Assembly (NCBI RefSeq): GCF_030581005.1
Contig: NZ_JAUQSX010000019.1
Coordinates: 1-64,000 of the forward strand
Direction: 5' to 3'
Source of the DNA: Hymenobacter mellowenesis
GTDB taxonomy: Bacteria; Bacteroidota; Bacteroidia; Cytophagales; Hymenobacteraceae
DNA length: 64,000 nucleotides
Position numbers and translations under genes: made by a program. The notes under the pieces were generated by a model, which saw only the letters and a program-made list of their open reading frames with translations, searched no databases and was not told the origin of the DNA. Shown here piece by piece: positions 36,462-52,080 of the stretch. Each line of letters starts with the position of its first letter. The stretch's first letter is position 1.

Positions 36462-36480
36462 GGAATATCAAAGCAGCTAA

Positions 36481-36593
36481 AAGAACGGTCATGCTGAGCG
36501 CAGTTGAAGCATCTCTACTGCGGAAGTAAATCCTGTCGATTGGATTACTTCTGCGGTAGAGATGCTTCAACTGCGCTCAGCATGACCGTTCTT
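36481..36593. repeat. family A palindromic repeat, copy 5
   Basis: Outer arms about 40 bp from 36481 and to 36593 (AAGAACGGTCATGCTGAGCG variant with CAGTTGAAGC / GCTTCAACTG). The CAGTTGAAG change is present in both arms. Inner repeat GTAAATCC / GGATTAC. Confidence 0.95.
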
Positions 36594-36620
36594 TTTTGGA
36601 TAAGCGGACGAATTACTCGC

Positions 36621-37994
36621 CTACGCCGGCTCCTGAATGGCGGGCGGCGTAGGATTATACTCGGCCGTAGCAGTGCGGTGCTCGGCGCTTTTCTTGCCCT
36701 TGTCGTCCTTCACATCGCGCCGGCTGAAGGGGCGGATGATGAGGCGCAGGGCCTGGTCGGTGCTGAAATAGCTAAAGGCCCAGTCGATGAAAGCTACCAC
36801 CTTGTTGCGGAAGCCTACCAGCGTCATCAGATGCACAAAAAGCCAGGTGGCCCAGCCAAAGAAGCCGTTGAAATGGATGTTCTTGGGCAGGTCCACCACG
36901 GCCTTGTTGCGGCTCACAATGGCCATCGAGCCCTTGTTGTTGTACACGAAATCCTTGGGCGTTTCGCCGCGCAACAGGCGTTGCAGGTTGGCGGCGAGGT
37001 GGTCGGCGTGCTGTTGGGCCACGGGCGCCAGCATGGGCAGGCCGCGGGGCATGTCGTCGGTCACCATGTTGGCCACATCGCCGATGGCGAAGACGTTATT
37101 CAGGCCCTCTACCTGGTTCCACAGGTTCACGTTGATGCGCTTGTTGCGGGTCACTACGTCGGCGGGCAGACCGGGCACTTCGGCACCGTTCACACCAGCG
37201 GCCCACACCAGGTTTTCGGTAGCAATAAATTCGTTGTCAGTATAATAAGCCCGGTTATCCTCAAAGTTTTTGATGGACGTGTTCAGCATCACCTTCACGC
37301 CCAGCTCGTCGAGGTAGCGCTTGGCATCGGCCTGGGAGGCTGGCGACATAGGCCCAAGCAGCGCCGGCCCGGCTTCGACCAGAAAAATCTGCATGTGCTG
37401 CAGGTCCAGCTCTGGGTAGTCTTTGGGCAGCACGTGCTTGCGCATCTCGGCCAGCGAGCCGCTGATTTCCACGCCCGTGGGCCCGCCGCCCACTACCACG
37501 ATGTTGAGCAGCGCCTGCCGCTCTTCGGGGTTTTCTGTGAGCAGGGCTTTCTCAAAATTCTGGAAAATGAAGCTGCGCAGGTTAAGAGCATTTGGGATGC
37601 TCTTGATTTGCATGGCGTTGCGCTCAATGCTTTCCAGCCCGAAGAAGTTGGTGAGCGAGCCGGTAGCCAGCACCAGGTAGTCGTAGCGAATATTGCCCAC
37701 GCTGGTAATCACCGTATTGGCGGCCGGGTCCACGCTGTGCACGTCGGCCATGCGGTAGAAGAAGTTTTTCTGGCCCGCAAAAATTTTCCGAATCGGATAC
37801 GCAATGCTGTCGGCCTCCAGGGCGCCGGTGGCTACCTGGTAGAGCAACGGCTGAAAGTTGTGGTAGTTGTTGCGGTCGATGACCACCACTTGCACCGGCG
37901 CCTTGCGCAGGGCCTTGGCCAGGCGCAAGCCCCCAAAACCGCAGCCAATAATGACCACGCGCGGGTGCGCCGAAACGGGAAGATTCGTGTCCAT
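36621..37994 (-). CDS. ndh: type II NADH dehydrogenase (NDH-2)
   Basis: A 457-residue flavoprotein that oxidises NADH and reduces menaquinone without pumping protons. The FAD motif is VVIIGCGFGGLRLAKAL (residues about 11-27); the second Rossmann motif is VVVGGGPTGVEISGSLAEM with NADH specificity; AIGDVANM and LAPVAQQHA follow. The C-terminal about 60 residues hold a hydrophobic/amphipathic membrane-binding part (WATWLFVHLMTLVGFRNKVV). It supplements complex I, two subunits of which are encoded at 53698-56735. Single gene. Confidence 0.92.
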   Translation of the reverse strand: MDTNLPVSAHPRVVIIGCGFGGLRLAKALRKAPVQVVVIDRNNYHNFQPLLYQVATGALEADSIAYPIRKIFAGQKNFFYRMADVHSVDPAANTVITSVGNIRYDYLVLATGSLTNFFGLESIERNAMQIKSIPNALNLRSFIFQNFEKALLTENPEERQALLNIVVVGGGPTGVEISGSLAEMRKHVLPKDYPELDLQHMQIFLVEAGPALLGPMSPASQADAKRYLDELGVKVMLNTSIKNFEDNRAYYTDNEFIATENLVWAAGVNGAEVPGLPADVVTRNKRINVNLWNQVEGLNNVFAIGDVANMVTDDMPRGLPMLAPVAQQHADHLAANLQRLLRGETPKDFVYNNKGSMAIVSRNKAVVDLPKNIHFNGFFGWATWLFVHLMTLVGFRNKVVAFIDWAFSYFSTDQALRLIIRPFSRRDVKDDKGKKSAEHRTATAEYNPTPPAIQEPA

Positions 37995-38090
37995 GTAATT
38001 GAAGTAAAGCCGGGTAATAACCTGTGCTTTACCCCAAATGTTGGGCAGAAGTTGTTTTTTCGTGCCCGCAGGCCCGCTGCCTACGAGGCG

Positions 38091-38777
38091 TTAGTCGTCG
38101 TTATACTTCTTCTTGAACTCGCCGTTTTTCACCTGCTGCACCAGCTTCAGCCAGCTGAAGGGGTTGAGCAGCGGGTTGTTGGCGTAAGTGCTGGGCCCGA
38201 AGCCGGCGCGCACGTCCTGGTTGTACTGCTGGTTTTGCATGGTCTGGCGGAAGTTGGCCACCGCCCCCATGGGCTGGGTCCGGAAAATGCGCGCCATCAG
38301 CTCTTGGTTTAGGTTGTCGGCGGCGGCGCTGCCCTTCTCGGTGGGCAGGCGCAAGGCCAGAAAAGCCTTTTTGAAGTCGCGCTCGGTGGTGTAGGGAAAC
38401 ACGCGCACTTCGCCCAGCATAGTAGCGTCTTCCACCAGCGAAATCACCACGGAGTAGCTCTGGCGCTGGTAGTCAGGCGGAATAACCACGGTGTAGTTGG
38501 CGTAGCCCAGCGAGCGGATGACGATGCTGTCGCCGGCCAGCACGGCCATCGAGAAATAGCCGTAGACGTTGGACGAGGTGCCGCGCCCGGCCCGGGGCAC
38601 GTAGATGCTGGCGCCGGGCACGCCCAGCAGGCTGTCGCCGGTGGCCACAATGCCGGTAAACTGAATGATTTTGCGCTTGCCCTGCGCGTACGCCGACGGG
38701 GCCGCCAGCAGCAGCGTGCCCAGCAGGGCCACGGCAAAAAAGAGGGAAAAGCGACGAAAGCGCAAGAAATCAGGCAT
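38091..38777 (-). CDS. carboxypeptidase-like regulatory domain protein
   Basis: A 228-residue exported protein: signal peptide with ALLGTLLLAAPSAYAQG, then a CarboxypepD_reg-like beta sandwich (about 30-115; IVATGDSLLGVPGASIYVP, YGYFSMAVLAGDSIVIRSLGYANYT). The rest (EVRVFPYTTERDFKKAFLALRL, NPLLNPFSWLKLVQQV) matches a type common in Bacteroidota with no assigned function. The ATG at 38777 starts the signal peptide; the longer upstream frame overlaps the divergent arsR gene and is a shadow. The 102-bp gap to arsR should hold both promoters. Confidence 0.8.
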   Translation of the reverse strand: MPDFLRFRRFSLFFAVALLGTLLLAAPSAYAQGKRKIIQFTGIVATGDSLLGVPGASIYVPRAGRGTSSNVYGYFSMAVLAGDSIVIRSLGYANYTVVIPPDYQRQSYSVVISLVEDATMLGEVRVFPYTTERDFKKAFLALRLPTEKGSAAADNLNQELMARIFRTQPMGAVANFRQTMQNQQYNQDVRAGFGPSTYANNPLLNPFSWLKLVQQVKNGEFKKKYNDD

Positions 38778-38879
38778 GTTCAGGAGTCGAGTAGGCAAAT
38801 ATACGGCGCCCGGGGCGGGGCCGATGGTAACTTTGGGCGGAAGAACACGGGGCATCCGTCCATTCATCCTAGACAGCAG

Positions 38880-39269
38880 ATGCGCTTGAAACATTTCACG
38901 GTTGCTTTTGGGCAGCAACTTTTTAAATCGTTGGGCGACGAAAGCCGTGTCCGCATCCTGCATTTGCTGTGGCGCAACCAGGAAATGGTGGTGGCCGATT
39001 TGGAGCAGGTGCTCGATTTCACCCAGACCAAAACCAGCCGGCAATTATCGTACTTGAAGAATGCAGGTTTGGTGAACGTGCGCCGGCTCGATAACTGGAT
39101 GTACTACTTCCTGAAAGAAGAGGCGGCCGAATTGCTGCAGGAGTTGCTCGGCTTCATGGAAAAAGACCCGCAGCTGCTGCGCGACCAGCAGATATACCAA
39201 ATCCTGTGGTCGAACCGCGAACTGGCCGCGTATAAGCTCCAGAACCGGCACTGGCACGGGCCGCTGTAG
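38880..39269 (+). CDS. ArsR family winged-helix regulator
   Basis: A 129-residue DNA-binding protein. The winged helix runs from LFKSLGDESRVRILHLLW (helix 1-2) through DFTQTKTSRQLSYLKNAGLV (recognition helix) to the wing VNVRRLDNWMYYFL. There is no ELCVCDL-type metal site; the equivalent segment is EMVVADLEQVL, so it is not a classical metal sensor. It is divergent from the regulatory-domain protein gene and is followed by repeat copy 6. The inducer is unknown. Confidence 0.88.
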   Translation: MRLKHFTVAFGQQLFKSLGDESRVRILHLLWRNQEMVVADLEQVLDFTQTKTSRQLSYLKNAGLVNVRRLDNWMYYFLKEEAAELLQELLGFMEKDPQLLRDQQIYQILWSNRELAAYKLQNRHWHGPL

Positions 39270-39291
39270 GAAGCTTAGCCGAAAAAAGAAT

Positions 39292-39389
39292 GTCATGCCG
39301 AGCGCAGCCGAGACATCTCGCGTGCTGAAGTAATCCTTTCAAAGAGTTAGTGGCGGCACGCGAGATGTCTCGGCTGCGCTCGACATGAC
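39292..39389. repeat. family A palindromic repeat, copy 6
   Basis: 34-bp arms, 39292-39325 and 39356-39389 (GAGCGCAGCCGAGACATCTC variant) with one mismatch. It follows the ArsR-family gene. Confidence 0.93.
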
Positions 39390-39431
39390 GGCCATTTGAT
39401 TCAATCGGTCCATTTTCAAATCCCTCTTATC

Positions 39432-39752
39432 ATGAGCACCTCCCGCCGCCTCTTCGTGTGCACCAACCAAAAATCAGGGATAGGGGAGGACGTGGCCAAA
39501 GCCCTGAAAAAAGAGCTCAAGCACCAAGGCTTGAAAAAACAGGTAATCGACGGCCACAAGCTGCGCACCCAGGTGCAAACCTGCGACTGCCTAGACCTGT
39601 GCCGTGACTGCAAAAAGGGCCCTGGCGCCGCCCTCATCGTATATCCCGAAGGCACCGTGTATGGCAACGTGCGCCCCGCTGATGCCGCCGAGCTGGTGGC
39701 CGAGCACGTGGGCCGGGGCAAGGTGCTAAAGCGGTTGCGGATAGAAGAATAA
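39432..39752 (+). CDS. (2Fe-2S) ferredoxin domain protein
   Basis: A 106-residue thioredoxin-like [2Fe-2S] protein. Cysteines that could hold the cluster are Cys10 (FVCTNQKSG), Cys51, Cys53, Cys57 and Cys60 (QTCDCLDLCRDCKKGP). The final part, IVYPEGTVYGNVRPADAAELV, is the usual end of this fold. The ATG at 39432 is at the right place before the first strand. It is in a plus-strand pair with the barrel-protein gene 82 bp downstream, but a shared role is not evident. Confidence 0.85.
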   Translation: MSTSRRLFVCTNQKSGIGEDVAKALKKELKHQGLKKQVIDGHKLRTQVQTCDCLDLCRDCKKGPGAALIVYPEGTVYGNVRPADAAELVAEHVGRGKVLKRLRIEE

Positions 39753-39834
39753 GCCTGCCAATGGGCCGGGTTCCAACCGAAGCGGGCTGGAATCCGTTGA
39801 TAGGGCAATTCATCTGTTATTCATCCGCCGCTCT

Positions 39835-41100
39835 ATGCGCTTTTCTCTCGCAGCCCTGCTTCTGACCGGGCTGGCTTTCAGTGCCGCCGCCCAGCCGGCC
39901 GCTCCCCCCGATTCCGTTTACACCGACACTGCTCCCCGCTCCGGCTTGGCGCCGCTGGCTACCCGGGCGCAGGCCCAGGCCATGGGCACCAAGTCCTTCG
40001 GGCAATTGGGCAAAGACGGCAATTTGAGTTTGCTGCCCATTCCGGTGTTGTTTTACCAGGCCGAAACCGGCCTCGGCTACGGCCTCGGTGCCCTGCTGAG
40101 CGGCCGGTTCTCCAAGGATACCCTCACGCGCCCTTCCAATGCCCGGGTGCAGTACTGGACCACCCAGAAGGGACAGTCACTGCTGCAACTAGTACACACC
40201 GTGTACACGCCCGGCGAGAAATTATATCTCAATGGTGAAATCAGCGCCTACGACATTCTGCTTTACTACTACGGCAAGGGCCCCGGCACTAGCAGCGCCG
40301 CTGAGTCGGAAACTGACTACAAGCTCTTCATCATCAACCAGCGTTTGCAGAAACAGATTGCTCCTAAGCTGTTTTTCGGCGCGCAATACCGTTTCACCTC
40401 TATCACGCAAGTCACCGCGCCGGGCAGCAGCGTGGACGGCGCCCGGACCAATGTCTTCTATACCGACCCGCGCATGACCGAGCGCGAACGGCAGAACACC
40501 CGCGTATCAGGCCTCGGCCCCGTCATTTCCTACGACACGCGCGACGTGCCCCTGGCCGCCTTCAAGGGCAACTTGCTGGATGTCGGCGCCACCTTCAACG
40601 GCACGGGCCTGGGTTCGGACTATCGTTTTGTGCGCTACCAGCTCGATGCCCGCCACTTCCAGCCCCTGGGCTCCAACCGCACCATTCTGGCGGCGCAGTT
40701 CCTCGGGCAGTTCCACACCGGCGATGTGCCGTTTCGCGAGCTGGCCGGCATTGGGGCCAACCTGGGCGGCACGCTCTACAACAACGCCAACTTGCTGCGG
40801 GGCATCTACGAGCAACGCTTCCGCGACCGCCAGATGATTATGTTCCAGGCCGAAATCCGGCACAAGCTGTTCCCCAATGGCGGCAGCGTATTGAGCCGGT
40901 TTGACGGGGCCGTTTTCGGCGGCGTTGGCAACGTAAACAACTACATCGACAAATTTGCCCTCAGCGACACCAAGTACGCTGGCGGCGCCGGTATCCGCTT
41001 CAATTTCATCCGCCGCGACCGGGTGAACCTGCGCCTCGACTATGCCGGCGGCACCGGCAGCTCGCCCGGTATCCTGTTCGCCATCGGCGAAGCCTTCTAA
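39835..41100 (+). CDS. BamA/TamA family outer-membrane protein
   Basis: A 421-residue outer-membrane barrel with a signal peptide (LAALLLTGLAFSAAAQ). The body is a surface-antigen-type (D15) beta barrel: IPVLFYQAETGLGYGLGALL early, ISYDTRDVPLAAFKGNLLDVG in the middle and RVNLRLDYAGGTGSSPGILFAIGEAF at the end, with C-terminal Phe. There is no run of POTRA domains. The function is probably protein or ligand transport across the outer membrane, but cannot be specified. A terminator follows 20 bp after the stop. Confidence 0.85.
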   Translation: MRFSLAALLLTGLAFSAAAQPAAPPDSVYTDTAPRSGLAPLATRAQAQAMGTKSFGQLGKDGNLSLLPIPVLFYQAETGLGYGLGALLSGRFSKDTLTRPSNARVQYWTTQKGQSLLQLVHTVYTPGEKLYLNGEISAYDILLYYYGKGPGTSSAAESETDYKLFIINQRLQKQIAPKLFFGAQYRFTSITQVTAPGSSVDGARTNVFYTDPRMTERERQNTRVSGLGPVISYDTRDVPLAAFKGNLLDVGATFNGTGLGSDYRFVRYQLDARHFQPLGSNRTILAAQFLGQFHTGDVPFRELAGIGANLGGTLYNNANLLRGIYEQRFRDRQMIMFQAEIRHKLFPNGGSVLSRFDGAVFGGVGNVNNYIDKFALSDTKYAGGAGIRFNFIRRDRVNLRLDYAGGTGSSPGILFAIGEAF

Positions 41101-41120
41101 GGTTACCAAAAACAATGATT

Positions 41121-41154
41121 AAAAGCCCTGCCCGTTAATTCGGGTGGGGCTTTT
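41121..41154 (+). terminator. Rho-independent terminator
   Basis: Imperfect stem AAAAGCCCTGCCCG / CGGGTGGGGCTTTT followed by TGTGTG, placed 20 bp after the barrel-protein stop codon. Confidence 0.8.
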
Positions 41155-41355
41155 GTGTGTTACAGAGCTGTAGAATGGCTGCTCTAGGCATGAGCTATTT
41201 GAATTATTCTGGAAAAATCAGTCTGGCTAAGCGCTGCATTCAAGGCCGGTGAATGATTTATACTGAGCGAGTAGAATTGATGAGAAGCTTCCTCGCTGCA
41301 TCCGCCCGGCAAGCTGGGCCTTATCCTTTCGCATGGCGCGGCGTACACCGATTTG

Positions 41356-42603
41356 ATGGACCACGCTACGCCCGCCCGCTTCCTCGCCGCCGGCGAGCCT
41401 ACCGCAACCGACCCCACCCAATCGGCCGACTGGCTGTTTCCGTTGCCACTCCAGGGCCGTAGCGCCCGCCTGCTGCAACAGCAGCTTGCCCTGCCCCATC
41501 CCGCATTGCGCATCAGCGTCATCATCCCGGCCAAAGATGAAGTAGCCAACCTGCCCACCACGCTGGCCGCCCTGGCCGCGCAGGTCGATTTGCAGGGCCG
41601 CCCCTGGCCGGCGGGCAGCTTCGAGGTCATTGTACTGGCCAATAACTGCACCGACCACACGGCCGCGGTGGTGCGCCAGCAGGCCCGCCGCTTTCCGCAC
41701 CTGATGGTGCACGTGGCCGAGCTGTGCCTGCCCGCCCCCAAGGCCCACGTGGGCCGGGCCCGCCGCCTGCTCATGGACGAGGCCTGCGCTCGGCTGGAGC
41801 AAGTAGGCCGCCGCCATGGCATTATCGCCAGCACCGATGCCGACACCCGTGTGGCCCCCACTTGGCTGGCCGCCATCCAGGCCGAAATAGACGCTGGCGC
41901 CGATGCCGTGGGCGGCCGCATCCTCACCGAAATGAGCAGCCCAGCGCTGCAGCCCCTGCGCCGTATTCAGACAGCTGACGCAGCCTACCATCTGCTCTGC
42001 GCCCGCCTGGAAAGCCTCCTCGACCCTGCGCCGGTTGACCCGTGGCCACGCCATCACCAGCATTTTGGGGCCAGTCTGGCCCTCACCGCCCGCGCCTACC
42101 GCCAGGTAGGCGGCCTGCCCGAAGTCCGTTTTCTGGAAGACGAAGCCCTGTGTCAGGCCCTGCGGCGGCACGACTTGAAGCTGCGCCATAGCCCTACGGT
42201 GCAGGTGCTCACTTCCGCCCGTCGCGAGGGCCGCGTCGAGGTCGGCCTTTCGTGGCAGCTAAGTGAGTGGTTGAAAATGAGCCAGCAGCAGCGTGAGCCT
42301 TACGTTGACAACCCCGTGCAACTGGCGCGGCGCTGGCAGCTACGTCGCCAGCTGCGCGCCTGCTGGAGCGGCTGCCCGGGCGCCGAAATCGCTGCGCTGG
42401 TCACCCGCCTCGGCCTGCCCGAATCGGTCGTATTGAGCCAGCTGGGGCAGGCGCCCACTTTTGGGGTGCTTTGGGAATGGACCTTGGCGCACAGCCCGGC
42501 GCTGGCTGTGGCTCCGGTGCCACTGTCGCGGGCGCTGCTGCTGTTGCCGCGGCTCATCCAGAGCCATCTGGTAGCGGGGGGGCGGGCCGTGGTGGCCGTT
42601 TAG
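41356..42603 (+). CDS. GT2 family glycosyltransferase
   Basis: A 415-residue GT-A fold enzyme. The N-terminal strand ISVIIPAKDEVANLPTTLAAL binds the nucleotide sugar; the DxD-type motif is ASTDADTRVAPTW; the catalytic acid is in FLEDEALCQAL. A C-terminal region (QLSEWLKMSQQQRE to the end) is mostly helical without clear membrane spans. The start codon is the ATG at 41356; a TTG precedes it. Its stop overlaps by four bases the stop of the convergent methyltransferase gene. With the deacetylase, methyltransferase and flavoprotein next door it suggests a small glycoside pathway. Confidence 0.85.
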   Translation: MDHATPARFLAAGEPTATDPTQSADWLFPLPLQGRSARLLQQQLALPHPALRISVIIPAKDEVANLPTTLAALAAQVDLQGRPWPAGSFEVIVLANNCTDHTAAVVRQQARRFPHLMVHVAELCLPAPKAHVGRARRLLMDEACARLEQVGRRHGIIASTDADTRVAPTWLAAIQAEIDAGADAVGGRILTEMSSPALQPLRRIQTADAAYHLLCARLESLLDPAPVDPWPRHHQHFGASLALTARAYRQVGGLPEVRFLEDEALCQALRRHDLKLRHSPTVQVLTSARREGRVEVGLSWQLSEWLKMSQQQREPYVDNPVQLARRWQLRRQLRACWSGCPGAEIAALVTRLGLPESVVLSQLGQAPTFGVLWEWTLAHSPALAVAPVPLSRALLLLPRLIQSHLVAGGRAVVAV

Positions 42604-43196
42604 CGTTTCTCCAGCAGGTCGAGCCGGTACTTTTCGTGGCGCTGACCGGTGAGGTGCCGCAAGGGACCAGTTTCCGTGGCCTTGGCCAGAAAAAACTCGT
42701 GCACGTCGTCGCCTGTGAGTGGGTAGTCGTGAACCGGCGGCGTCCAATGCACCAGTAAGAGTTGGCCGCCAGGCTGTAGGCCAGCAATGAGTTGGTCGGC
42801 TGCGCGGGCCAAGTCGTTCGGCGACCAGTAATAACCGACTTCCGACAATAAAATCAGGTCAAATTTCTGGGTGGGAAATTCGTTAGGCACCTGCATCAGA
42901 CGAATTTCTACCTGCGGCAGCTCGGCGCAGCGGGCTCGGGCCTGGGTCAGCGCGGCTTCGCTTACGTCCACGGCCAACAGGTGAGCGCAGCGCGGCGCCA
43001 GCTGGGCCGTGAGCACGCCCAGCGAACAACCTATTTCAAACGCTTCGGCGTAATGCGGGCGCGGCAGGGCGGCCAGTGTGGCAGCGTATTTCTCGCGCTC
43101 ATAAGGACTGGTTTCAAAATTCCACGGGTCGCGGTTGGCCTGGTACACGTGGTCGAAATATTCCGGCGGTAGGGTGTTGGGCTGGTTTTCGTTCAT
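42600..43196 (-). CDS. class I SAM-dependent methyltransferase (NodS-like)
   Basis: A 198-residue methyltransferase with the NodS-type N-terminus (YFDHVYQANRDPWNFETSPYEREKYAATLAALP) and SAM motif I AFEIGCSLGVLTAQLAP, acidic strand-2 residue LLAVDVS, motif IV DLILLSEVGYYW. NodS methylates the free amine of deacetylated chitin oligomers in Nod-factor synthesis. The adjoining upstream gene is a deacetylase with a four-base ATGA overlap, so an N-methylated amine made by deacetylation is a sensible prediction; that part is inference. Confidence 0.85.
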   Translation of the reverse strand: MNENQPNTLPPEYFDHVYQANRDPWNFETSPYEREKYAATLAALPRPHYAEAFEIGCSLGVLTAQLAPRCAHLLAVDVSEAALTQARARCAELPQVEIRLMQVPNEFPTQKFDLILLSEVGYYWSPNDLARAADQLIAGLQPGGQLLLVHWTPPVHDYPLTGDDVHEFFLAKATETGPLRHLTGQRHEKYRLDLLEKR

Positions 43197-43912
43197 GGCG
43201 CTACGGCTTCAAAAAAAACTTCATACGGTGTGGCGAAGTGCGCCAGCATTTCTTCGGATAATAAAAAACCGTCAGCATCGTCGGTGAACACGCCCGGTGC
43301 CACCTGCGAGCGGTGCGCCGCAATGGCCCGCTGCTTCTGCCGCAGCCCAGCCTCAATATTTAGGCGAAACCCCTGTACGCCATCGGCTGCCGTGGGCAGG
43401 TCGTCGGGCGCGGCGCGTTCCCAGGCCCACACCACGTATTCAAGCCGGCGCGGTGGCTTATCCATCGCGGCCAGAGCCACCGCCACCAGTTGGCTGGTAG
43501 CGCGGTGGTCGGGGTGGGGGTCGCGCCGCCAGGGCACCAGCACGGTAGCTGCCGCATGTTGCTCCAGAAACTCCTGCAGCTGAGTGGCGGCAGCGGCAAA
43601 GCCGGGTTCGGTGGTTGAGCTGGGTACGCGACCATCGGGCAGGCCCAGCAGCAGCGGCTCCGTGGCATCGAGCCCGAGCAAAGTGAGGGCGTGGCAGAAC
43701 TCCGTCTCCCGAACTGCCCGGCGTGCTTGGGCTGAAAACAACAGCGAGTTTGAGTGCGACATCGAGCCGTCGCTCACCAGCACGGCCGCTACCGGCACGC
43801 CTTGTTGCCGCAACAGGGCCAGCAGCCCGCCGCAGCCCAGGGCCTCGTCGTCGGGGTGGGGAGCTATTACCACTGTGGGGCCCAGCGTGGCGGCAAAGCT
43901 GCCCGGCCGCAT
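43193..43912 (-). CDS. PIG-L family deacetylase
   Basis: A 239-residue zinc deacetylase of the LmbE/PIG-L family, which removes N-acetyl groups from GlcNAc-type sugars. The metal and catalytic motif is APHPDDEALG (His19, Asp21, Asp22, Glu23) with the second His site in DPHPDHRAT. The ATG at 43912 begins right before the first strand; the longer frame to 43981 has an odd hydrophobic leader and is less likely. It is coupled to the methyltransferase gene (four-base overlap) and follows the flavoprotein gene by 69 bp. Confidence 0.88.
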   Translation of the reverse strand: MRPGSFAATLGPTVVIAPHPDDEALGCGGLLALLRQQGVPVAAVLVSDGSMSHSNSLLFSAQARRAVRETEFCHALTLLGLDATEPLLLGLPDGRVPSSTTEPGFAAAATQLQEFLEQHAAATVLVPWRRDPHPDHRATSQLVAVALAAMDKPPRRLEYVVWAWERAAPDDLPTAADGVQGFRLNIEAGLRQKQRAIAAHRSQVAPGVFTDDADGFLLSEEMLAHFATPYEVFFEAVAP

Positions 43913-43981
43913 CGGGTAAGAATTAAAAGGAAGCAAAGCTGGAAAGGAAAACGCTAACAACTGACAACAAAAAACCAACAA

Positions 43982-45205
43982 CTAAAACGTCTTGCCTTCG
44001 AGCACGAAGCGGCCCACGTCGGCCAGCGCGCCGTCGGGCGCGGGCTGGCGCAGGTAGTGGGTGAGGTCGCGGTGCAGGCGCTCGAAGGGAAGGGGCTGGA
44101 GCAGGCCGCGGGCGCCCACGCAGCGCTCGGCCAACTGCAGCATGTCGAGGCAGATGGTCTCGATGGCCGTGCGCATCATGTTGGCATAGGCCACGGTGGC
44201 TTCGGCCTCGGCCGTGGCGTTGGGGCGGGCGGCGTGTTCGGCGGCCCCGCGTACCCACTGGTGGCCGCTTTCGAGGGCAAGGGCCATTTGGCCGAGGCGC
44301 TGGCGTTGGTAAGGGTCGTCGATGCGCCCCAGGCTTTGCAGAAAGCGGCGGGTTTCTTCGAAAATCGCCTCGGCCCCACCCAGCTGCACCGCCGCAAACC
44401 GGATGGCGCCGCCACTGAATGCCGGCTGCCGGTAATACGCATCGGGCGGACCGATGAAGTCCTCGGGACCTATTTCCAGCCCGGTCAAGTCGGCCCGAAA
44501 GCTGGCCGTGGCCCGCATGCCCAACGGCCGCCAGAAGGAGCGGTCCAACTCGGGAGGCTGGCTGTCGGCGGGCAGCACGAACAACTGCCAGCCCTGCCCA
44601 TCGGGCAAGGCGCCGGTGATAAGCGGCCGCGCCAGATGGCCCGCGCCCGATGCAAACGTTTTGGCCCCGCGCAGGCGGTAGCGCCCGTTAGGCAGGGCTT
44701 CGAGGTGCACACCATCAGCCGGAATCTCGGTATTCCAGACACCAAACAGCCGGCCGGCGCGGGCATCGGCGGCGTAGCGCGCCACTTGCTCGGCCGTGCC
44801 CATTTGCTGAATAAGCTGCAGCGCATTCGTGTGCCCTTCAAACACGCGCCCCACCGCCAGGTTTCCCCGCCCAATGTGCTGCAGCACCCGCAGCAGCGGC
44901 AACGTAGCCGCCGGGGTATCGAGCCCGGCGCCGCCCAATGTAGCGGGCAAGGCCGCCGTGAGCAGGCCCACCGCTCGCAGCCAATCAAATTCCTGCGTGG
45001 GAAAACCGCCTTCTACATCGGTTTCGGCGGCCTGGGCAAATAAGCGCGGCGCCAGCTGGGCGGCGGCGGCTTCCGCTGCGGCGGGGTTGGTTAAGGCCGC
45101 TGGGGCCAGTGTATCAGTTGTAATCAAAGCGGGTGGTGTGGAGAGCAGCGCGAAATCGGAGTCAGCGGCCGGCATAGGCTGAAGGAGAGAGTTTCTATAC
45201 TTCAT
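43982..45205 (-). CDS. acyl-CoA dehydrogenase-like flavoprotein
   Basis: A 407-residue protein with the three-domain acyl-CoA dehydrogenase fold: helical N-terminal part (FPTQEFDWLRAVGLLTAALPATLGGAG), beta domain (FGVWNTEIPADG; RLRGAKTFASGAGHLARP) and helical C-terminal part. The catalytic Glu region of true dehydrogenases (a YEGT-like motif) is absent; here it reads RDLTHYLRQPAPDG, more like flavin monooxygenases and oxidases of the superfamily. The start is ambiguous: ATG at 45205 or 45175. It is the first gene of a three-gene minus-strand operon with the deacetylase and methyltransferase. Confidence 0.85.
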   Translation of the reverse strand: MKYRNSLLQPMPAADSDFALLSTPPALITTDTLAPAALTNPAAAEAAAAQLAPRLFAQAAETDVEGGFPTQEFDWLRAVGLLTAALPATLGGAGLDTPAATLPLLRVLQHIGRGNLAVGRVFEGHTNALQLIQQMGTAEQVARYAADARAGRLFGVWNTEIPADGVHLEALPNGRYRLRGAKTFASGAGHLARPLITGALPDGQGWQLFVLPADSQPPELDRSFWRPLGMRATASFRADLTGLEIGPEDFIGPPDAYYRQPAFSGGAIRFAAVQLGGAEAIFEETRRFLQSLGRIDDPYQRQRLGQMALALESGHQWVRGAAEHAARPNATAEAEATVAYANMMRTAIETICLDMLQLAERCVGARGLLQPLPFERLHRDLTHYLRQPAPDGALADVGRFVLEGKTF

Positions 45206-45363
45206 AAGCGGCTGCAGTGTTCGGCCCATTCAGCCTTATCGGTCAAGCTCTCGAAGGCGCGGCTAACAATTCGGTAATAAAGCTTTTGGAATGCCGCGGG
45301 GGTAGGGGCGTACCTTTGCGGCGGCAATAGTGCTGTGCTTTTTCCTGCAAAAACAACCTTATT

Positions 45364-46899
<1,536 letters not shown>

Positions 46900-46905
46900 G
46901 GGCAG

Positions 46906-47127
46906 GCCAGTCGCCTGTCATTGCGAGGCCGCAGGCCGTAGCAATCCGTCCTGTTCTCAGCGACTAGCCTAATAATGTGACAACCGAACGTCAACGCGGC
47001 TAAAGCTCTAAAACCTGAAAAGCCCCGGTACTGCGCAGTGCCGGGGCTTTGTGGCGAAAGGGCGTGTCTGATTTTGACAGGACGGATTGCTTCGTCGTGC
47101 CTCCTCGCAATGACAGGCGGGACTGGC
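46906..47127. repeat. family B palindrome (TCATTGCGAGG type) enclosing a terminator
   Basis: Outer arms 46906-46928 and about 47103-47127 (GCCTGTCATTGCGAGG / CCTCGCAATGACAGGC) with a 2-bp insertion in the right arm; inner arms 46941-46956 and 47075-47090 (GCAATCCGTCCTGT). The centre carries the purH terminator. It fills most of the 346-bp gap between purH and mreB, in which no gene was seen. Confidence 0.85.
47018..47050 (+). terminator. probable purH terminator
   Basis: Stem AAAGCCCCGGTACTGC / GCAGTGCCGGGGCTTT, long and GC-rich, about 120 bp after the purH stop, inside the family B palindrome. The T run is short (TTT), so strength is uncertain. Confidence 0.65.
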
Positions 47128-47245
47128 CGGCATCCTTGGCAGAATCCCATAATCCCGTTCACCAACCCCGCCCAAACCTTCCGTACCTTTGCCCATTATT
47201 TTGCTTGAGCACCGGCCCGAGCTCCGCCTTATTGCATATATCTCA

Positions 47246-48271
47246 ATGGGTTTCTTTAATTTCCTGACCAGCGACATCGCCATCGACCTGGGCACGGCCA
47301 ATACGCTCATCATTCACAACGACAAAATCGTGGTGGACGAGCCGAGCATCATCGCCAAAGACCGAACCACGAACAAAGTCATCGCCGTGGGCCGCCAGGC
47401 CCAGCAGATGCACGAGAAAACGCACGACAACATCCGCACCATCCGCCCGCTCAAGGATGGGGTAATTGCCGATTTCCACGCCGCCGAGGAAATGATTAAG
47501 GGCATGATTAAGATGATTGACACGCGCACGCGGCTGTTTCAGCCCTCGCACCGCATGGTCATCTGCATCCCCTCGGGCATCACCGAAGTAGAGAAACGCG
47601 CCGTGCGTGACTCCGCCGAGCACGCTGGCGCCAAGGAAGTCTGGATGATTCAGGAACCCATGGCCGCCGCCATCGGCATCGGCATCGACGTGGAACAGCC
47701 CGTGGGCTCGATGATTATCGACATCGGCGGCGGCACCACCGAAATCGCCGTTATCGCCCTCTCGGGCATCGTGTGCGACCAGTCCATTAAAACGGCTGGC
47801 GACGTTTTCAACCAGGACATCCTCGACTACATGCGTCGGCAGCACAACCTGCTCATCGGCGAACGGTCGGCCGAGCGCATCAAAATCGAAGTTGGCGCCG
47901 CTCTCACCGAACTCGACGTGCCGCCGCCCGACCATGAAGTGCGCGGCCGCGATTTGATGACGGGCATTCCGAAGGTTATTAAAGTAACGTTCTCGGAAAT
48001 TGCCATTGCCCTCGATAAATCGGTGGCCAAAATCGAAGAGGCCGTATTGAAAGCCCTCGAAATTTCGCCGCCTGAACTCTCGGCCGATATTTACGAAAAC
48101 GGCATTCACCTCACCGGCGGCGGCGCCCTGCTGCGCGGGCTCGACAAGCGTCTCGCGGCCAAAACCAAGCTGCCCATTCACATTGCCGAAGACCCGCTGC
48201 GCGCCGTAGTGCGCGGCACCGGCAAGGCCATTAAGGACATTCAGGCCTTTAAAGGCGTGCTGCTGACGTAA
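47246..48271 (+). CDS. mreB: rod-shape-determining protein MreB
   Basis: A 341-residue bacterial actin that directs the elongation machinery under the inner membrane. The N-terminal amphipathic start GFFNFLTSDIAIDLGTANT holds the phosphate 1 site; MIIDIGGGTTEIAVI is phosphate 2; NGIHLTGGGALLRGLDKRL is the adenosine motif. The ATG at 47246 is chosen because longer frames add an unconserved leader. It begins the mreBCD-mrdA group but is separated from mreC by repeat copy 7. Confidence 0.96.
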   Translation: MGFFNFLTSDIAIDLGTANTLIIHNDKIVVDEPSIIAKDRTTNKVIAVGRQAQQMHEKTHDNIRTIRPLKDGVIADFHAAEEMIKGMIKMIDTRTRLFQPSHRMVICIPSGITEVEKRAVRDSAEHAGAKEVWMIQEPMAAAIGIGIDVEQPVGSMIIDIGGGTTEIAVIALSGIVCDQSIKTAGDVFNQDILDYMRRQHNLLIGERSAERIKIEVGAALTELDVPPPDHEVRGRDLMTGIPKVIKVTFSEIAIALDKSVAKIEEAVLKALEISPPELSADIYENGIHLTGGGALLRGLDKRLAAKTKLPIHIAEDPLRAVVRGTGKAIKDIQAFKGVLLT

Positions 48272-48292
48272 TTCGAAATTAGTGTAAAAACG

Positions 48293-48378
48293 GTCATGCA
48301 GAGCGTAGCGAAGCATCTTTACCTCAATAGTAAATAATTACTGCTGCGGTAAAGATGCTTCGCTACGCTCTGCATGAC
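48293..48378. repeat. family A palindromic repeat, copy 7
   Basis: Perfect 31-bp arms, 48293-48323 and 48348-48378 (CATGCAGAGCGTAGCGAAGC variant). It lies between mreB and mreC, inside a probable operon. The loop (AT-rich, 24 bp) is the shortest of those with degenerate inner repeats. Confidence 0.95.
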
Positions 48379-48405
48379 GTTCTTATTCAATCCAATTAAT
48401 CCCCC

Positions 48406-49344
48406 GTGCGGAATTTATTTCTTTTCCTATTTCGCTTTCGCGGGGCGCTGGTATTTGGCTTATTGGAAATAATAAGCCTCTATTTATTTGTAACCAATAA
48501 TTCGTACCAGCGGGCGGCGTTTTTTAATTCGGCCAATTCCTACGCGGGCGTGGTGCTGGAGCGCCGCACCCATATAACGGACTATTTCCATCTGGCCGAT
48601 TTAAATAAACAATTAGCGGCCGAAAATGCGGCGCTGCGCCAGCAACTCTACCCGCCCGACACGGCCCGGCGCGAGGCCGACTCGGTGGCCATTCCGCCAG
48701 CCCGCACCGACACGCTCCGGCTGGTGCGCTACCAGCGCCCCGCCAGCCGCCCCGATACGCTGCTGCTGGGCCAGCAGCGCCTGCCGGCCCGCGACCCGAG
48801 TTACCCCCTGATTCCGGCCCGGGTTATCAACAACCGCCTCAGTAATGTGGATAACTTCTTCACCCTGAACGTGGGCACGGCCAACGGCGTGCAGCGCGGC
48901 CTGGGCGTGGTGGCGGCGGGCGGCGTGGCCGGCCGCGTGCAGGCCGTGACCGAGCACTACGCCACCGTGGCCAGCCTGCTGCACTCCAAAACCACCATTG
49001 CCTCCAAAATCAAGCGCGACGGCACCTTCGGCACCATCAAGTGGCAGGGCGACGACCCCACCCACGCCCTGCTCGACAACGTGCTGCGCGAAACCAAACT
49101 GGTGAAAGGGGACACAGTGGTGACGTCGGGCTACAATGCCATTTTCCCGGAAGGTATTTTCATCGGTACCATTGATTCCTTCGTGAAAGAACCGGACAAG
49201 AACTTCTGGACCATTCGGGTGCGCCTAGGCGTCAATTTTTCCAATTTACAATACGTGTACGTGGTGACGAGCCGGCCTAAAGCCGAGCGCGACACCGTGG
49301 AGGCGCGCGCGGGCATGCTGCCGGAAGGAGGGAAGCGCAAATGA
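48406..49344 (+). CDS. mreC: rod-shape-determining protein MreC
   Basis: A 312-residue protein with one N-terminal membrane helix (about 10-28), a coiled coil (DLNKQLAAENAALRQQL) and the periplasmic beta-domain (GLGVVAAGGVAGRVQAV; GDTVVTSGYNAIFPEGIFIGTI). It links MreB to PBP2. The start is GTG at 48406, MRNLFLFLFRFRGALV, the usual N-terminus. Its last bases overlap mreD by four (ATGA). Confidence 0.94.
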   Translation: MRNLFLFLFRFRGALVFGLLEIISLYLFVTNNSYQRAAFFNSANSYAGVVLERRTHITDYFHLADLNKQLAAENAALRQQLYPPDTARREADSVAIPPARTDTLRLVRYQRPASRPDTLLLGQQRLPARDPSYPLIPARVINNRLSNVDNFFTLNVGTANGVQRGLGVVAAGGVAGRVQAVTEHYATVASLLHSKTTIASKIKRDGTFGTIKWQGDDPTHALLDNVLRETKLVKGDTVVTSGYNAIFPEGIFIGTIDSFVKEPDKNFWTIRVRLGVNFSNLQYVYVVTSRPKAERDTVEARAGMLPEGGKRK

Positions 49345-49868
49345 GTGGCCTACGGTTTCTATTCGTTCAAATCCTGCGCTTCGCGCTTTACGCGGGCCTG
49401 CACGTGATGCTCATTAGCCGGCTGGTGTTGTTCGATTTGGGCTGGTGCTTTTTCTACTTGGGCTTCCTGTTGTTTTTGCCCTTGCGCACGCCTATTGTGG
49501 TGCAGTTGCTGCTGAGTTTCGCCATGGGCGTCACGATGGATATTTTCTACGACACGGGCGGGCTGCACGCGGCGGCGGCGGTGCTGCTGGGCTTTCTGCG
49601 GCCGTGGGTGCTGCGCCTGCTCACCCCGCGTGACGGTTACGACTCGGCCGACGCCGTGAACGTGCACCAGATGGGCTGGCATTGGTTCGGCGTGTATCTC
49701 ACGCTGTTGGTGCTGCTGCACCACGCCACGTTTTTCATCCTGGAGTTGGGCAGCTTCCGCCACATCGGCCTCACGCTGGGAAAAATACTGGTGAGCGCAC
49801 TCTTTACCGGGCTGGCGTTGTTAATCGTGCAGCTGCTGTTTTTCCCGGTGCGAAGGGGGAGGAGTTAG
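49341..49868 (+). CDS. mreD: rod-shape-determining protein MreD
   Basis: A 175-residue integral membrane protein with five to six hydrophobic helices (e.g. VLFDLGWCFFYLGFLLFLPL; IVVQLLLSFAMGVTMDIFYD). The sequence is weakly conserved, but size, membrane pattern and position between mreC and mrdA identify it. Its start is coupled to the end of mreC. It is followed by repeat copy 8. Confidence 0.9.
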   Translation: MSGLRFLFVQILRFALYAGLHVMLISRLVLFDLGWCFFYLGFLLFLPLRTPIVVQLLLSFAMGVTMDIFYDTGGLHAAAAVLLGFLRPWVLRLLTPRDGYDSADAVNVHQMGWHWFGVYLTLLVLLHHATFFILELGSFRHIGLTLGKILVSALFTGLALLIVQLLFFPVRRGRS

Positions 49869-49888
49869 GAGTAAATTATTTAGTAGAA

Positions 49889-49992
49889 CGTCATGTCGAG
49901 CTTGCCGAGACATCTCGTGTGCTACCACTAATCCTTTTTACCCATTGGATTAGTGGTAGCACACGAGATGTCTCGGCAAGCTCGACATGACG
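49889..49992. repeat. family A palindromic repeat, copy 8
   Basis: The longest perfect copy: 46-bp arms, 49889-49934 and 49947-49992, with only 12 bp between them. In this copy the inner GTAATCC-type repeat is fused to the outer arm (CACTAATCC / GGATTAGTG). It lies between mreD and mrdA. Confidence 0.97.
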
Positions 49993-50011
49993 GGCAACGA
50001 TATAAAGTGAA

Positions 50012-51865
50012 ATGCAATATTTAGAAGGCCGTAAATACGTCGTCCAGGGCATCTTCTTAATTGTGGTGCTCATCTTCCTCACCCGCTTGTTTTTCATGCA
50101 GGTGATGGACGGTACGTACAAGCTGGCCGCCGACAAAAACACCCTGCAGCGCCTGGTGCAGATACCCTACCGCGGCCTGATTTACGACCGCAAAGACCAG
50201 TTGCTGGTGCAGAATGAGCCCGTGTATGACCTCATGGTGGTGCCCCGGGAGGTGAAGCAACTCGACTCGGCCCGCTTCTGCGAGCTGCTGCAAATTCCAC
50301 AGGAAGAGTTGCGCAACAGCCTGCGCGTGGCCAAAAAATATTCGCGCAACAAGCCCTCGCCCATTGTCCAGAACCTGACTACGCGCGACCTAGCCATCAT
50401 TCAGGACAACCTGATGGACTTTCCCGGCTTCCGCATTCAGGCGCGCATGGCCCGGGCCTACCGCACGGCCAACCTGGCCCACGCCCTGGGCTACGTGGGT
50501 TCCATCACGCCAGCGCTGCTCGAAAAGCCGAAATACGCCAAGTACCAGCCCGGCGAAAATATCGGTATTTCGGGCCTGGAGTCGTATTACGAGCCTATTC
50601 TGATGGGCCGCCGCGGTGTGCAGTACAAGATGGTGAACGTGCGCGGCATCGAGAAAGGCAAGTTCCGAGGCGGCGAGTTCGACACCCTTTCGGTGGCCGG
50701 GCAGGACTTGCACCTGAGCATCGACGCCGAGTTGCAGGCCTACGGCGAGAAGCTGCTAGCCAACCGCCGCGGTTCCATCGTGGCCATCGACCCCAAGACG
50801 GGCGAAATTCTGGCCTTCGTTTCGGTGCCGCGCTACGACCCCAACCTGCTGACCGGCAAGGGCGCGGGCAACCGCTACATGGCCCTGCTCAACAACCCCG
50901 ACCGCCCGCTCTTCGACCGCCCGCTGATGGCCACCTACCCGCCCGGCTCGGTGTTTAAGCTGGTGAACGAGTTGGTGGCCCTGCAGTTGGGCGTGGTGCA
51001 GCCCGGTACTGGCTTCGAGTGCAACCAGAAGCTGGTGCGCTGCACCCACCGCCACGAGCGGCCGTCCAACGTGAGCATTGCCATCAAAAACAGCTGCAAC
51101 CCCTATTTCTATCAGGTGATGCAGGCGGCCGTGCTGCGCGGCCAGGGCAAGAATAAGTACGAGGATACCCACATCGGCCTGGGCCAGTGGCAGAAAATGG
51201 TGAAAACCTTCGGACTGGGTGAGAAGCTGGGCGTGGACATGCTTCAGGAAAAGCGCGGCCTGATTCCCTCGCCGGAGTTTTACGATAAGAAGTTCTTCAA
51301 CAAGAAGGAAAACCGCCAACACCGCTGGAGCTACCGCAACGTGTACTCGCTCAGCATCGGGCAAGGCGAAATCGGCATCACGGGCGTGCAAATGGCCAAC
51401 GTGCTGGCCACCATCGCCAACCGCGGCTGGTACTACACGCCGCATTTCGTGCGCAGCATCGGCAACGGCGGCCCGCTGCCCCAGTTCCGCCAGAAGCACT
51501 ACACGGCCGTCGATACGACGCTGTTCAAATACATCATCCCCGGCATGCAGATGGTGGTGGACGGCAACGGCGGCACCGGCAACCTAGCCTCGCTGGCCGA
51601 GCTGGGTATTTCGGTGGCCGGCAAAACCGGCACTGTGCAGAACCCCCACGGCTTCGACCACGCCACCTTCGCCGCCTTCGCCCCGGTGAACGACCCGAAA
51701 ATTGCCATCGCCGTGTTCATCGAAAACTCCGGTTTTGGGGGTACCAGCGCCGCTCCCGCTGCGGGGTTAATGATTGAAAAATACCTGCGTGGCAAAGTGG
51801 CTGGCTACCGCCACCGCTGGGAAGACTGGGTGATGTACGGCGACTTCACGAAGAAGCTGCACTAA
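50012..51865 (+). CDS. mrdA: penicillin-binding protein 2
   Basis: A 617-residue transpeptidase of the rod complex. A membrane helix is at about 8-26 (VVQGIFLIVVLIFLTRLFF), then the PBP dimer domain, then the transpeptidase with Ser313 in SVFK, SCN near residue 361 and KTGT near 537. It cross-links new peptidoglycan during elongation and is controlled by MreC. The usual next gene rodA is not present; an SDR gene follows after a palindrome. Confidence 0.95.
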   Translation: MQYLEGRKYVVQGIFLIVVLIFLTRLFFMQVMDGTYKLAADKNTLQRLVQIPYRGLIYDRKDQLLVQNEPVYDLMVVPREVKQLDSARFCELLQIPQEELRNSLRVAKKYSRNKPSPIVQNLTTRDLAIIQDNLMDFPGFRIQARMARAYRTANLAHALGYVGSITPALLEKPKYAKYQPGENIGISGLESYYEPILMGRRGVQYKMVNVRGIEKGKFRGGEFDTLSVAGQDLHLSIDAELQAYGEKLLANRRGSIVAIDPKTGEILAFVSVPRYDPNLLTGKGAGNRYMALLNNPDRPLFDRPLMATYPPGSVFKLVNELVALQLGVVQPGTGFECNQKLVRCTHRHERPSNVSIAIKNSCNPYFYQVMQAAVLRGQGKNKYEDTHIGLGQWQKMVKTFGLGEKLGVDMLQEKRGLIPSPEFYDKKFFNKKENRQHRWSYRNVYSLSIGQGEIGITGVQMANVLATIANRGWYYTPHFVRSIGNGGPLPQFRQKHYTAVDTTLFKYIIPGMQMVVDGNGGTGNLASLAELGISVAGKTGTVQNPHGFDHATFAAFAPVNDPKIAIAVFIENSGFGGTSAAPAAGLMIEKYLRGKVAGYRHRWEDWVMYGDFTKKLH

Positions 51866-51882
51866 CGGCAGGGGGAGAAGTT

Positions 51883-52017
51883 GAACGAGGTAGAGACGCA
51901 ATATTTTGCGTCTCGTCGTTGCTGATGTTGTTATGACTGCGCAGTCATGCGGTGTCAAATGGTGTGGACCCGGTCGTTCAACGACGAGACGCAAAATATT
52001 GCGTCTCTACCTCGTTC
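51883..52017. repeat. family C palindrome (GAGACGCAA type)
   Basis: Perfect 39-bp arms, 51883-51921 and 51979-52017, each containing the nested palindrome GAGACGCAATATTTTGCGTCTC. The centre (51922-51978) has a small palindrome, ATGACTGCGCAGTCAT. It lies between mrdA and the SDR gene. Confidence 0.95.
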
Positions 52018-52080
52018 GATAGCCAACCTTCCGCCCGTTTCCCCGGTTGTAGCACCTCCTCAATCACCACTACAATTACT

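Follow-up and report, generated by a model that had tools for sequence, protein, structure and literature searches.

In mycothiol and bacillithiol synthesis, a glycosyltransferase (MshA or BshA) joins GlcNAc to a small acceptor, and the resulting glycoside is then deacetylated by a PIG-L enzyme (MshB or BshB). Amino sugars are also the substrates of the sugar N-oxygenases and nitrososynthases (KijD3, DnmZ, and ORF36), which are flavoenzymes with the ACAD fold. The Nod-factor set nodC-nodB-nodS combines a GT2-type synthase, an N-acetylglucosamine deacetylase, and the NodS methyltransferase, and the order nodA-nodB-nodC-nodS was found in R. etli Mim1 and S. americanum. An excerpt of one report states that NodS methylates only once deacetylation has occurred (PMC5080398).

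Four adjoining genes with likenesses to these systems were found in a 64,000-nucleotide window of Hymenobacter mellowenesis DNA, the whole stretch that was analysed (Table 1). They resemble the Nod-factor set in joining a GT2-type enzyme, a deacetylase, and a NodS-type methyltransferase, and the form of the module found in Rubrobacter has a NodB-like deacetylase. However, no NodA acyltransferase was seen in the module, the NodC model was not among the eight families listed for its GT2, a PIG-L rather than a NodB-type enzyme is used outside Rubrobacter, and a flavoprotein is added. A glycosyltransferase and a PIG-L enzyme are shared with mycothiol and bacillithiol synthesis, whereas the glycosyltransferase of the module belongs to GT2 and not to GT4, its PIG-L protein falls under the BshB1, BshB2, and MshB cut-offs, and its four genes provide N-methylation instead of a cysteine ligase. 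No title or abstract opening among the matches listed in full-text literature searches, whose scope left out most subscription papers, described the four-gene combination.

Table 1. Coordinates of the four genes in the window.
Feature	Position	Strand	Remarks
GT2 glycosyltransferase, 415 aa	41356..42603	+	Orientation opposed to the other three genes
NodS-like SAM-dependent methyltransferase, 198 aa	42600..43196	-	PF05401; putative N-methyltransferase of the bared amine
PIG-L-type de-N-acetylase, 239 aa	43193..43912	-	PF02585; PHPDDE and HPDH motifs
ACAD-fold flavoprotein, 407 aa	43982..45205	-	Apparently nearest to group D monooxygenases; RDLTHYLRQPAPD at the dehydrogenase (Y/F/G)EGT position

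Layout and conservation of the four genes

The initial annotation had described tight coupling of the minus-strand genes and a GT2 gene converging on them with a four-base stop overlap, and the recomputed coordinates agree with it to the base. The stops of the GT2 and methyltransferase genes overlap at 42600-42603, and the methyltransferase start overlaps the PIG-L stop at 43193-43196, by four bases each. The PIG-L and ACAD-like genes are 69 bp apart if PIG-L starts at the ATG at 43912, and this gap is gone if an in-frame TTG at 43981 is the start.

The four genes had also been proposed to form a module, and the neighbourhood search for the four families found them together elsewhere. Using the methyltransferase as the sole query, named genomes were scanned and 80 loci were kept, which were annotated with family profiles that had themselves been derived from these loci by iteration (inclusion E 1e-8). 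All four families were adjacent in 68 of the 80 loci, comprising 36/37 from Hymenobacter and 32/43 from other groups, and the module occurs in Bacteroidota, Cyanobacteriota, Pseudomonadota, and Actinomycetota, as well as on Deinococcus plasmids. Four PIG-L (PF02585) copies are present in the organism's own 6.42-Mb genome, and such a gene is thus expected in ~1% of 20-kb stretches, as compared with the 76 of 80 loci (each up to 20 kb) in which PIG-L lies beside the methyltransferase; the grouping is therefore not due to chance. In an independent draw of 296 Bacteroidota genomes, a homologue was detected in nine (own genome counted), among which the six with close homologues (three of them Hymenobacter) had the full set and the three with distant homologues did not.

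In several loci, a member is missing although no contig end explains it: ACAD is absent in L075, L078, L085, and L088, GT2 in L078 and L088, and PIG-L in L072 and L105, implying that no single step is required everywhere. In L081 and L082, the methyltransferase occurs without the other three families. The module members counted were 72 ACAD, 73 GT2, and 76 PIG-L stretches. The S. meliloti pSymB locus (L034), where PIG-L was the sole family found, was not counted as a module.

Predicted sugar-modifying enzymes and proposed pathway

The PIG-L protein scores above the Pfam cut-off (PF02585, 85.3 bits; cut-off 28.2), its PDB matches include TT1542 and diacetylchitobiose deacetylases, and it carries both zinc motifs, (P/A)HPDDE and HxDH, whose loose forms are present in 75/76 and 74/76 module members, respectively. 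Similarly, the methyltransferase exceeds the cut-off for PF05401 (NodS; 67.1 bits against 24). Its PDB matches include an unnamed methyltransferase (4isc, E 3.6e-33) and NodS (3ofj, E 8.2e-17). Identification as BshB, MshB, or NodS proper was rejected because all scores against the curated NCBIfam equivalogs fall below the cut-offs (BshB2, 59.6 of 195.25; BshB1, 55.2 of 182.5; MshB, 22.5 of 224.35; NodS, NF041650, the top match of the methyltransferase, 80.8 of 300). By its sequence, the methyltransferase is NodS-like but not NodS, a further difference from the Nod-factor system; in a tree of 42 hand-picked rows, NodS lies beside Rubrobacter on a branch of 3.62, a length that makes this placement unsure.

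PIG-L and the methyltransferase are fused in one frame, with non-overlapping domains, in 19/80 loci (including L114, whose PIG-L part is truncated by the contig end), and such fusions were found in Actinomycetota, Bacteroidota, and Cyanobacteriota. Moreover, in both Rubrobacter loci (2/2), PIG-L is replaced by an unrelated CE4 deacetylase adjoining the NodS-like methyltransferase; its top NCBIfam match, scored for one of the two loci, is NodB (113.4 bits; cut-off 240). Because of this fusion and this non-homologous replacement, the previously suggested pairing of deacetylation with N-methylation appears well supported.

The GT2 protein matches PF00535 (Glycos_transf_2; 39.2 bits, cut-off 23.3). 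Its DxD motif is TDAD, and TD[AGSP]D was found in all 73 module GT2s, 42 of which were aligned with the window protein. The predicted model is a compact GT-A fold (pLDDT 90.8), whose nearest solved folds include WrtF (Z 21.9, rmsd 2.1, 182 aligned) and TarS (Z 20.3, rmsd 3.0, 204 aligned); these fold matches do not distinguish the donor or the acceptor.

Taken as a whole, the best explanation is that the module represents a stress-related pathway to an N-methylated, perhaps N-oxygenated, amino-sugar glycoside, for which we see about an even chance; in it, the four genes constitute one conserved biosynthetic module. GT2 would glycosylate a putative, probably soluble acceptor with an N-acylated amino sugar, of which GlcNAc is the likeliest. 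PIG-L would strip the acetyl group from the sugar, and the NodS-like enzyme would methylate the bared amine, by analogy with NodB and NodS in Nod-factor synthesis. The flavoprotein, acting last or in between, would oxygenate the product using reduced flavin made elsewhere in the cell; the amine would be the most plausible site. The product may serve survival under oxidative or desiccation stress.

The link to stress comes from neighbouring genes. On plasmids of other bacteria, catalase, Ku, or trehalose genes are often next to the module. Across 18 module windows with annotation, totalling 284 kb, sixteen stress genes were counted, spread over 10 of the windows, compared with two in seven 50-kb control stretches (350 kb) from seven of the same records, where the list (catalase, Ku, LigD, trehalose synthesis, Hsp20, CsbD, and 'general stress protein') was compiled post hoc after the windows had been viewed, the 18 windows were the author's choice from two match lists, and the seven control records all have a listed gene in their module window. 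Eight of the 18 windows contain none of the listed genes, four are from sphingomonads (three sharing one catalase arrangement), and one or more of the four families are missing from five (L031, L032, L120, L122, and L123). According to one report, EcfG of Sphingomonas melonis Fr1 controls several glycosyltransferase genes as well as catalases and a Ku gene (PMC6599016). All Hymenobacter loci (37/37) have purH next to the module, which also adjoins a BamA-like gene in 36/37, and a search for catalase alone found no homologue in these 37 loci. Among the best 40 clusters of non-Hymenobacter neighbours (frames of at least 120 aa), scattered families only were found beyond the four families and many shadow frames (ABC-ATPase-like in seven groups, SDR-like in six, catalase in four, and MFS in three).

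Other neighbours are consistent with a different reading, possible but rather doubtful, in which the target of the module is a polysaccharide or lipid of the cell surface: GlcNAc would be added by GT2 to an envelope glycan, deacetylated, and N-methylated, altering the surface charge, and the flavoprotein would oxidise a lipid or a sugar carbon. At least one of a GT1 (top NCBIfam match TuaH, under the cut-off), a UDP-galactopyranose mutase, and a glycosidase-like protein occurs in 7/108 loci, the last forming a single protein with the flavoprotein on two Deinococcus plasmids. In addition, three further glycosyltransferase genes surround the module in four sphingomonad plasmids, and the GT2 fold is near those of the polymer-modifying WrtF, RmlT, TarS, and TarP. 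However, no transporter, flippase, or polymerase was found at a fixed place, the ABC-ATPase-like and MFS genes lying at varying distances, and the compact GT-A protein predicted for GT2 also argues against such a role.

The ACAD-fold flavoprotein

The flavoprotein has the ACAD fold and domains (Acyl-CoA_dh_N, PF02771, 40.1 bits; PF00441, 35.8 bits), as the initial annotation had assumed in calling it an ACAD-like enzyme that oxidises; acyl-CoA dehydrogenase chemistry is unlikely. In profile searches, the matches were led by DszC (110.8 bits) and included MsuC (91.1), KijD3 (82.1-82.2), and DnmZ (66.1), as well as the short-chain acyl-CoA dehydrogenase 7y0a (80.2) and three entries named just acyl-CoA dehydrogenase (94.5, 89.5, and 82.9), which are interspersed with the monooxygenases. 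The first six Foldseek matches were DszC and TdsC, at 20-25% identity. In VIA-align, DszC and TdsC reached Z 41.4-41.6 (TdsC 41.6), others 40.0-40.1 (human SCAD 40.0), and KijD3 (4kcf) 39.2 (rmsd 2.7, 361 aligned). Dehydrogenases overall gave 38-41, including the cysteine dehydrogenase ColB1 in a tie at 40.7, and thus fold alone does not decide the class of the modelled protein.

The C-terminal EGT, which holds the catalytic glutamate of acyl-CoA dehydrogenases, was present in 4/4 canonical ACAD paralogues of the genome and in 0/11 aligned module members; among the 72 module ACAD members, in which rows L073 and L107 are too short to show the region, the three EGT matches all lie near residue 100, outside the C-terminal region. 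Some dehydrogenases have their glutamate at an alternative position. Because the usual glutamate is missing and the nearest relatives appear to be DszC-type monooxygenases, the flavoprotein is probably not an acyl-CoA dehydrogenase. It probably inserts oxygen, perhaps at an amine, judging from these relatives.

By profile and Foldseek, the group D monooxygenases DszC, SfnB, and MsuC appear to be the closest described enzymes, but the flavoprotein scores far below the NCBIfam equivalog cut-offs (DszC, 78.9 of 850; SfnB, 84.6 of 430.9), and identification as DszC or SfnB proper was rejected accordingly. The sugar N-oxygenases, which belong to the DszC group as well, are represented among its matches by KijD3, whose 4kcf entry is titled as bound to a dTDP-amino sugar; however, DszC, TdsC, and MsuC are closer, and no dTDP-sugar gene is among the four. 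The flavoprotein alignment comprised the window protein and 47 of the 72 ACAD stretches. The 'ACAD' candidate of the Dyadobacter locus L075 was a glycosidase-like protein and was left out. No constant flavin reductase neighbour was seen on inspection of the loci.

It is unlikely that the flavoprotein instead acts on a sugar, amine, or acyl group as a dehydrogenase or oxidase, yielding an oxidised N-methylated amino sugar with no oxygen insertion. Such an activity would fit the shared fold, the ColB1 tie, and the high-ranking acyl-CoA dehydrogenase entries, and both Rubrobacter clusters (2/2) include a pyridine-nucleotide-disulphide oxidoreductase (top NCBIfam match, ferredoxin-NAD reductase) that might pass electrons. 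Against it stand the absence of the glutamate from its usual place and the monooxygenases as top single matches.

A possible stress-related product

That the four genes serve separate pathways and were co-inherited by neutral synteny, as the fixed Hymenobacter site adjoining purH and mreB might suggest, is very improbable and was rejected, since they stay together across five phyla, on plasmids and chromosomes, with changing flanks and orientations, fusions, and a non-homologous replacement.

Within the preferred reading of a stress-related amino-sugar glycoside, a more specific product can be imagined, although we consider it a long shot: a new class of low-molecular-weight protectant, which would add a third member to the glucosamine-derived stress molecules mycothiol and bacillithiol, in the form of a nitrone-forming, radical-trapping glycoside. 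Deacetylation and mono-methylation would give a secondary amine, which an N-oxygenase-like flavoprotein would turn into an N-methyl-N-hydroxylamino (nitrone-forming) glycoside. A radical-trapping group would account for the recurring catalase, Ku, and trehalose neighbours, and for the spread of the module among bacteria of dry and sunlit habitats.

The conservation of a four-enzyme pathway across five phyla, plasmid-borne in some bacteria and fixed in position in Hymenobacter, suggests a useful small molecule or glycan without a name in the literature searched. The fused and replaced forms offer clear and compact targets for in vitro study. Should the product prove to be a stress protectant, it would take its place beside trehalose, mycothiol, and bacillithiol among the testable explanations of how some of these bacteria withstand drying and oxidation.

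Module layout and conservation across genomes

The positions, overlaps and 69-bp gap that the initial annotation gave for the four genes in the window were confirmed by re-reading the sequence, and the PIG-L gene may be longer, with a TTG at 43981 in frame. The names of the flanking genes listed in the table (purH, mreB, mreC and BamA-like) were read from translations, and of these the conserved order alone was tested.

Features of the module in the window and of related loci (L-numbers denote loci of relatives)
Feature	Sequence	Coordinates	Strand	Remark
GT2 glycosyltransferase	window	41356-42603	+	above Pfam cut-off
NodS-like methyltransferase	window	42600-43196	-	above Pfam cut-off
PIG-L deacetylase	window	43193-43912	-	above Pfam cut-off
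ACAD-fold flavoprotein	window	43982-45205	-	above Pfam cut-off
Module with flanking genes	window	35181-52797		purH, mreB, mreC on one side, BamA-like gene on the other
CE4 deacetylase replacing PIG-L	L123	5951-6823		NodB-like
CE4 deacetylase replacing PIG-L	L105	8296-8829		
Glycosidase-like family	L075	7985-9202		recurs with GT1 and UDP-galactopyranose mutase
Glycosidase-like family	L031	3660-4889		recurs with GT1 and UDP-galactopyranose mutase
Glycosidase-like family	L134	4953-5981		recurs with GT1 and UDP-galactopyranose mutase
Glycosyltransferase by annotation	L118	5154-6200		348 aa

By using the methyltransferase alignment as the sole query in a scan of named genomes, 207 relatives were found, the best 80 of which were kept as loci. 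The four genes are a conserved unit: the co-occurrence search proposed in the initial annotation found all four families together in 68 of these 80 loci (36 of 37 Hymenobacter loci and 32 of the 43 others). In four of the 12 incomplete loci (L063, L100, L106 and L114), the gene that is absent or incomplete falls at the end of a contig, and the other eight are real departures, in which PIG-L is lacking (L072, L105), ACAD is lacking (L075, L078, L085, L088, with GT2 also missing in L078 and L088 and PIG-L dissimilar in L085 and L088), or the methyltransferase occurs without the other three (L081, L082). In an independent draw of 296 Bacteroidota genomes, a homologue was present in nine, host included; the six close homologues (three from Hymenobacter, the window counted) had the full set, and neither PIG-L nor ACAD was found in the neighbourhoods of the three distant ones.

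The closest named loci to the window's module are those of Hymenobacter, which share its gene order. There, purH adjoins the module in all 37 loci and the BamA-like gene in 36, the 37th locus being cut; outside the genus, gene orders and flanks are variable. A PIG-L match was detected in 35 of 37 Hymenobacter genomes, host (6.42 Mb) included, and was absent at E 1e-20 from genomes G010 and G015. Partial matches with a stop in G012 and G028 are possibly decaying copies. The other three genes were read in 30 fetched loci, some genes being cut at locus ends. In one Hymenobacter locus (L149, genome G129), the GT2 and methyltransferase genes do not touch but stand about 2.8 kb apart.

Deacetylase, methyltransferase and glycosyltransferase

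Deacetylation and N-methylation, two steps proposed from the sequence, were supported by gene fusion and gene replacement. PIG-L and the methyltransferase are fused, with non-overlapping domains, in 19 of the best 80 of 207 relatives (Arthrobacter, Leifsonia, Cellulomonas, Microbacterium, Glaciibacter, Neolewinella and a Gloeobacterales MAG), and one further fusion was found outside these 80 in Bacteroidota locus L152. In Rubrobacter indicoceani, a polysaccharide deacetylase (CE4) occupies the PIG-L slot beside ACAD, methyltransferase, pyridine-nucleotide oxidoreductase and GT2 genes, and a Rubrobacter MAG (L105) has the same gene set. The R. indicoceani deacetylase matches Polysacc_deac_1 (Pfam) at 92 bits, has NodB as its top NCBIfam match at 113.4 bits, below the cut-off of 240, and retains the TFDD and HxxxH motifs. 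The strongest evidence that this slot would serve to expose an amine to methylation is the occurrence of two unrelated N-deacetylases in it, adjoining a NodS-like enzyme. Deacetylation is the earlier step and N-methylation the later one in Rhizobium sp. IRBG74 (PMC5080398). The oxidoreductase gene of Rubrobacter, situated between the methyltransferase and GT2 genes, encodes a ferredoxin-reductase-like protein.

The predicted GT2 model (pLDDT 90.8) has a GT-A fold, and its nearest solved folds include WrtF, RmlT, TarS, PcManGT and TarP. Because of the PIG-L enzyme, the transferred sugar would be GlcNAc.

Stress genes and further sugar enzymes near the module

Stress genes were tallied in 18 annotated plasmid neighbourhoods (284 kb) hand-chosen from two hit lists, four of them from sphingomonads; all four families occur in 13, the incomplete ones being L031, L032, L120, L122 and L123. 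The list, drawn up post hoc, comprised catalase, Ku, LigD, trehalose synthesis, Hsp20, CsbD and "general stress protein". Sixteen such genes were found in 10 of the 18 neighbourhoods (L033, L036, L117-L121, L128, L129 and L131), and two (CsbD and manganese catalase) in seven 50-kb control stretches on seven of these records. Per base, the controls are approximately 10-fold below the module neighbourhoods, with a post hoc list and with all seven control records being ones that carry a listed stress gene near the module.

On the four sphingomonad plasmids, the module is flanked by three further glycosyltransferase genes (in L130, one of these is split), and three of these plasmids have genes for a catalase and a Crp-type regulator ahead of it. 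The 348-aa protein of plasmid locus L118 has no Pfam or NCBIfam match, and its conservation extends over five loci, four of sphingomonads and one of Methylobacterium. An Acinetobacter towneri plasmid carries catalase, trehalose genes and an iron-containing redox enzyme beside the module. A. baumannii DtpC is described as a predicted haem-oxygenase-like diiron oxidase co-transcribed with katE, either dtpC or katE alone being enough for survival of drying (PMC13232832).

Of 108 loci, 7 carry one or more of three further sugar enzymes: GT1, UDP-galactopyranose mutase and a glycosidase-like protein. Matches of the glycosidase-like family to the GH42, GH53 and GH35 models are all sub-threshold, and on two Deinococcus plasmids (L031, L134) this protein is fused to the flavoprotein. 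In Bacteroidota locus L153, mutase and glycosidase-like genes directly precede GT2-ACAD-PIGL-methyltransferase, with a piece of GT1 at the edge. In the host genome, the mutase (72% identity) and the glycosidase-like protein (58%) are encoded at two widely separated sites, both far from the module.

The flavoprotein

DszC and TdsC fill Foldseek ranks 1-6 for the predicted flavoprotein model (pLDDT 91.5, pTM 0.89). VIA-align gave Z 41.6 for TdsC (rmsd 2.4, 362 aligned), 41.4 for DszC (2.4, 363), 40.7 for the cysteine dehydrogenase ColB1 (2.2, 352), 40.0 for a human short-chain dehydrogenase (2.6, 356) and 39.2 for the sugar N-oxygenase KijD3 (2.7, 361). Since dehydrogenases and monooxygenases have similar Z, the fold alone is not decisive. 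Profile scores were 110.8 bits for DszC, 91.1 for MsuC, 82.2 for KijD3, 80.2 for short-chain dehydrogenase 7y0a and 66.1 for DnmZ, and 94.5, 89.5 and 82.9 for three entries named only acyl-CoA dehydrogenase. The substrates of KijD3, DnmZ and ORF36 are dTDP-amino sugars, in agreement with PDB titles. Among 48 flavoprotein members, NCBIfam models matched 35 (SfnB), 30 (DszC) and 25 (3-sulfinopropanoyl-CoA desulfinase), and the window's flavoprotein is far below all three cut-offs. N-hydroxylation is among the group D activities (PMC6165268).

The ACAD-like assignment in the initial annotation holds for the fold but not for the catalytic glutamate site, where alignment showed EGT in the host genome's four canonical ACADs and RQ followed by P or S in 11 aligned module members. 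Of the four-step chemistry first proposed, deacetylation and N-methylation are supported, the flavoprotein step is corrected and the glycosylation step is putative. A description of this gene combination was not found in the open-licence papers searched; the module brings together enzyme families that are already known, in a combination that is conserved widely and apparently undescribed.
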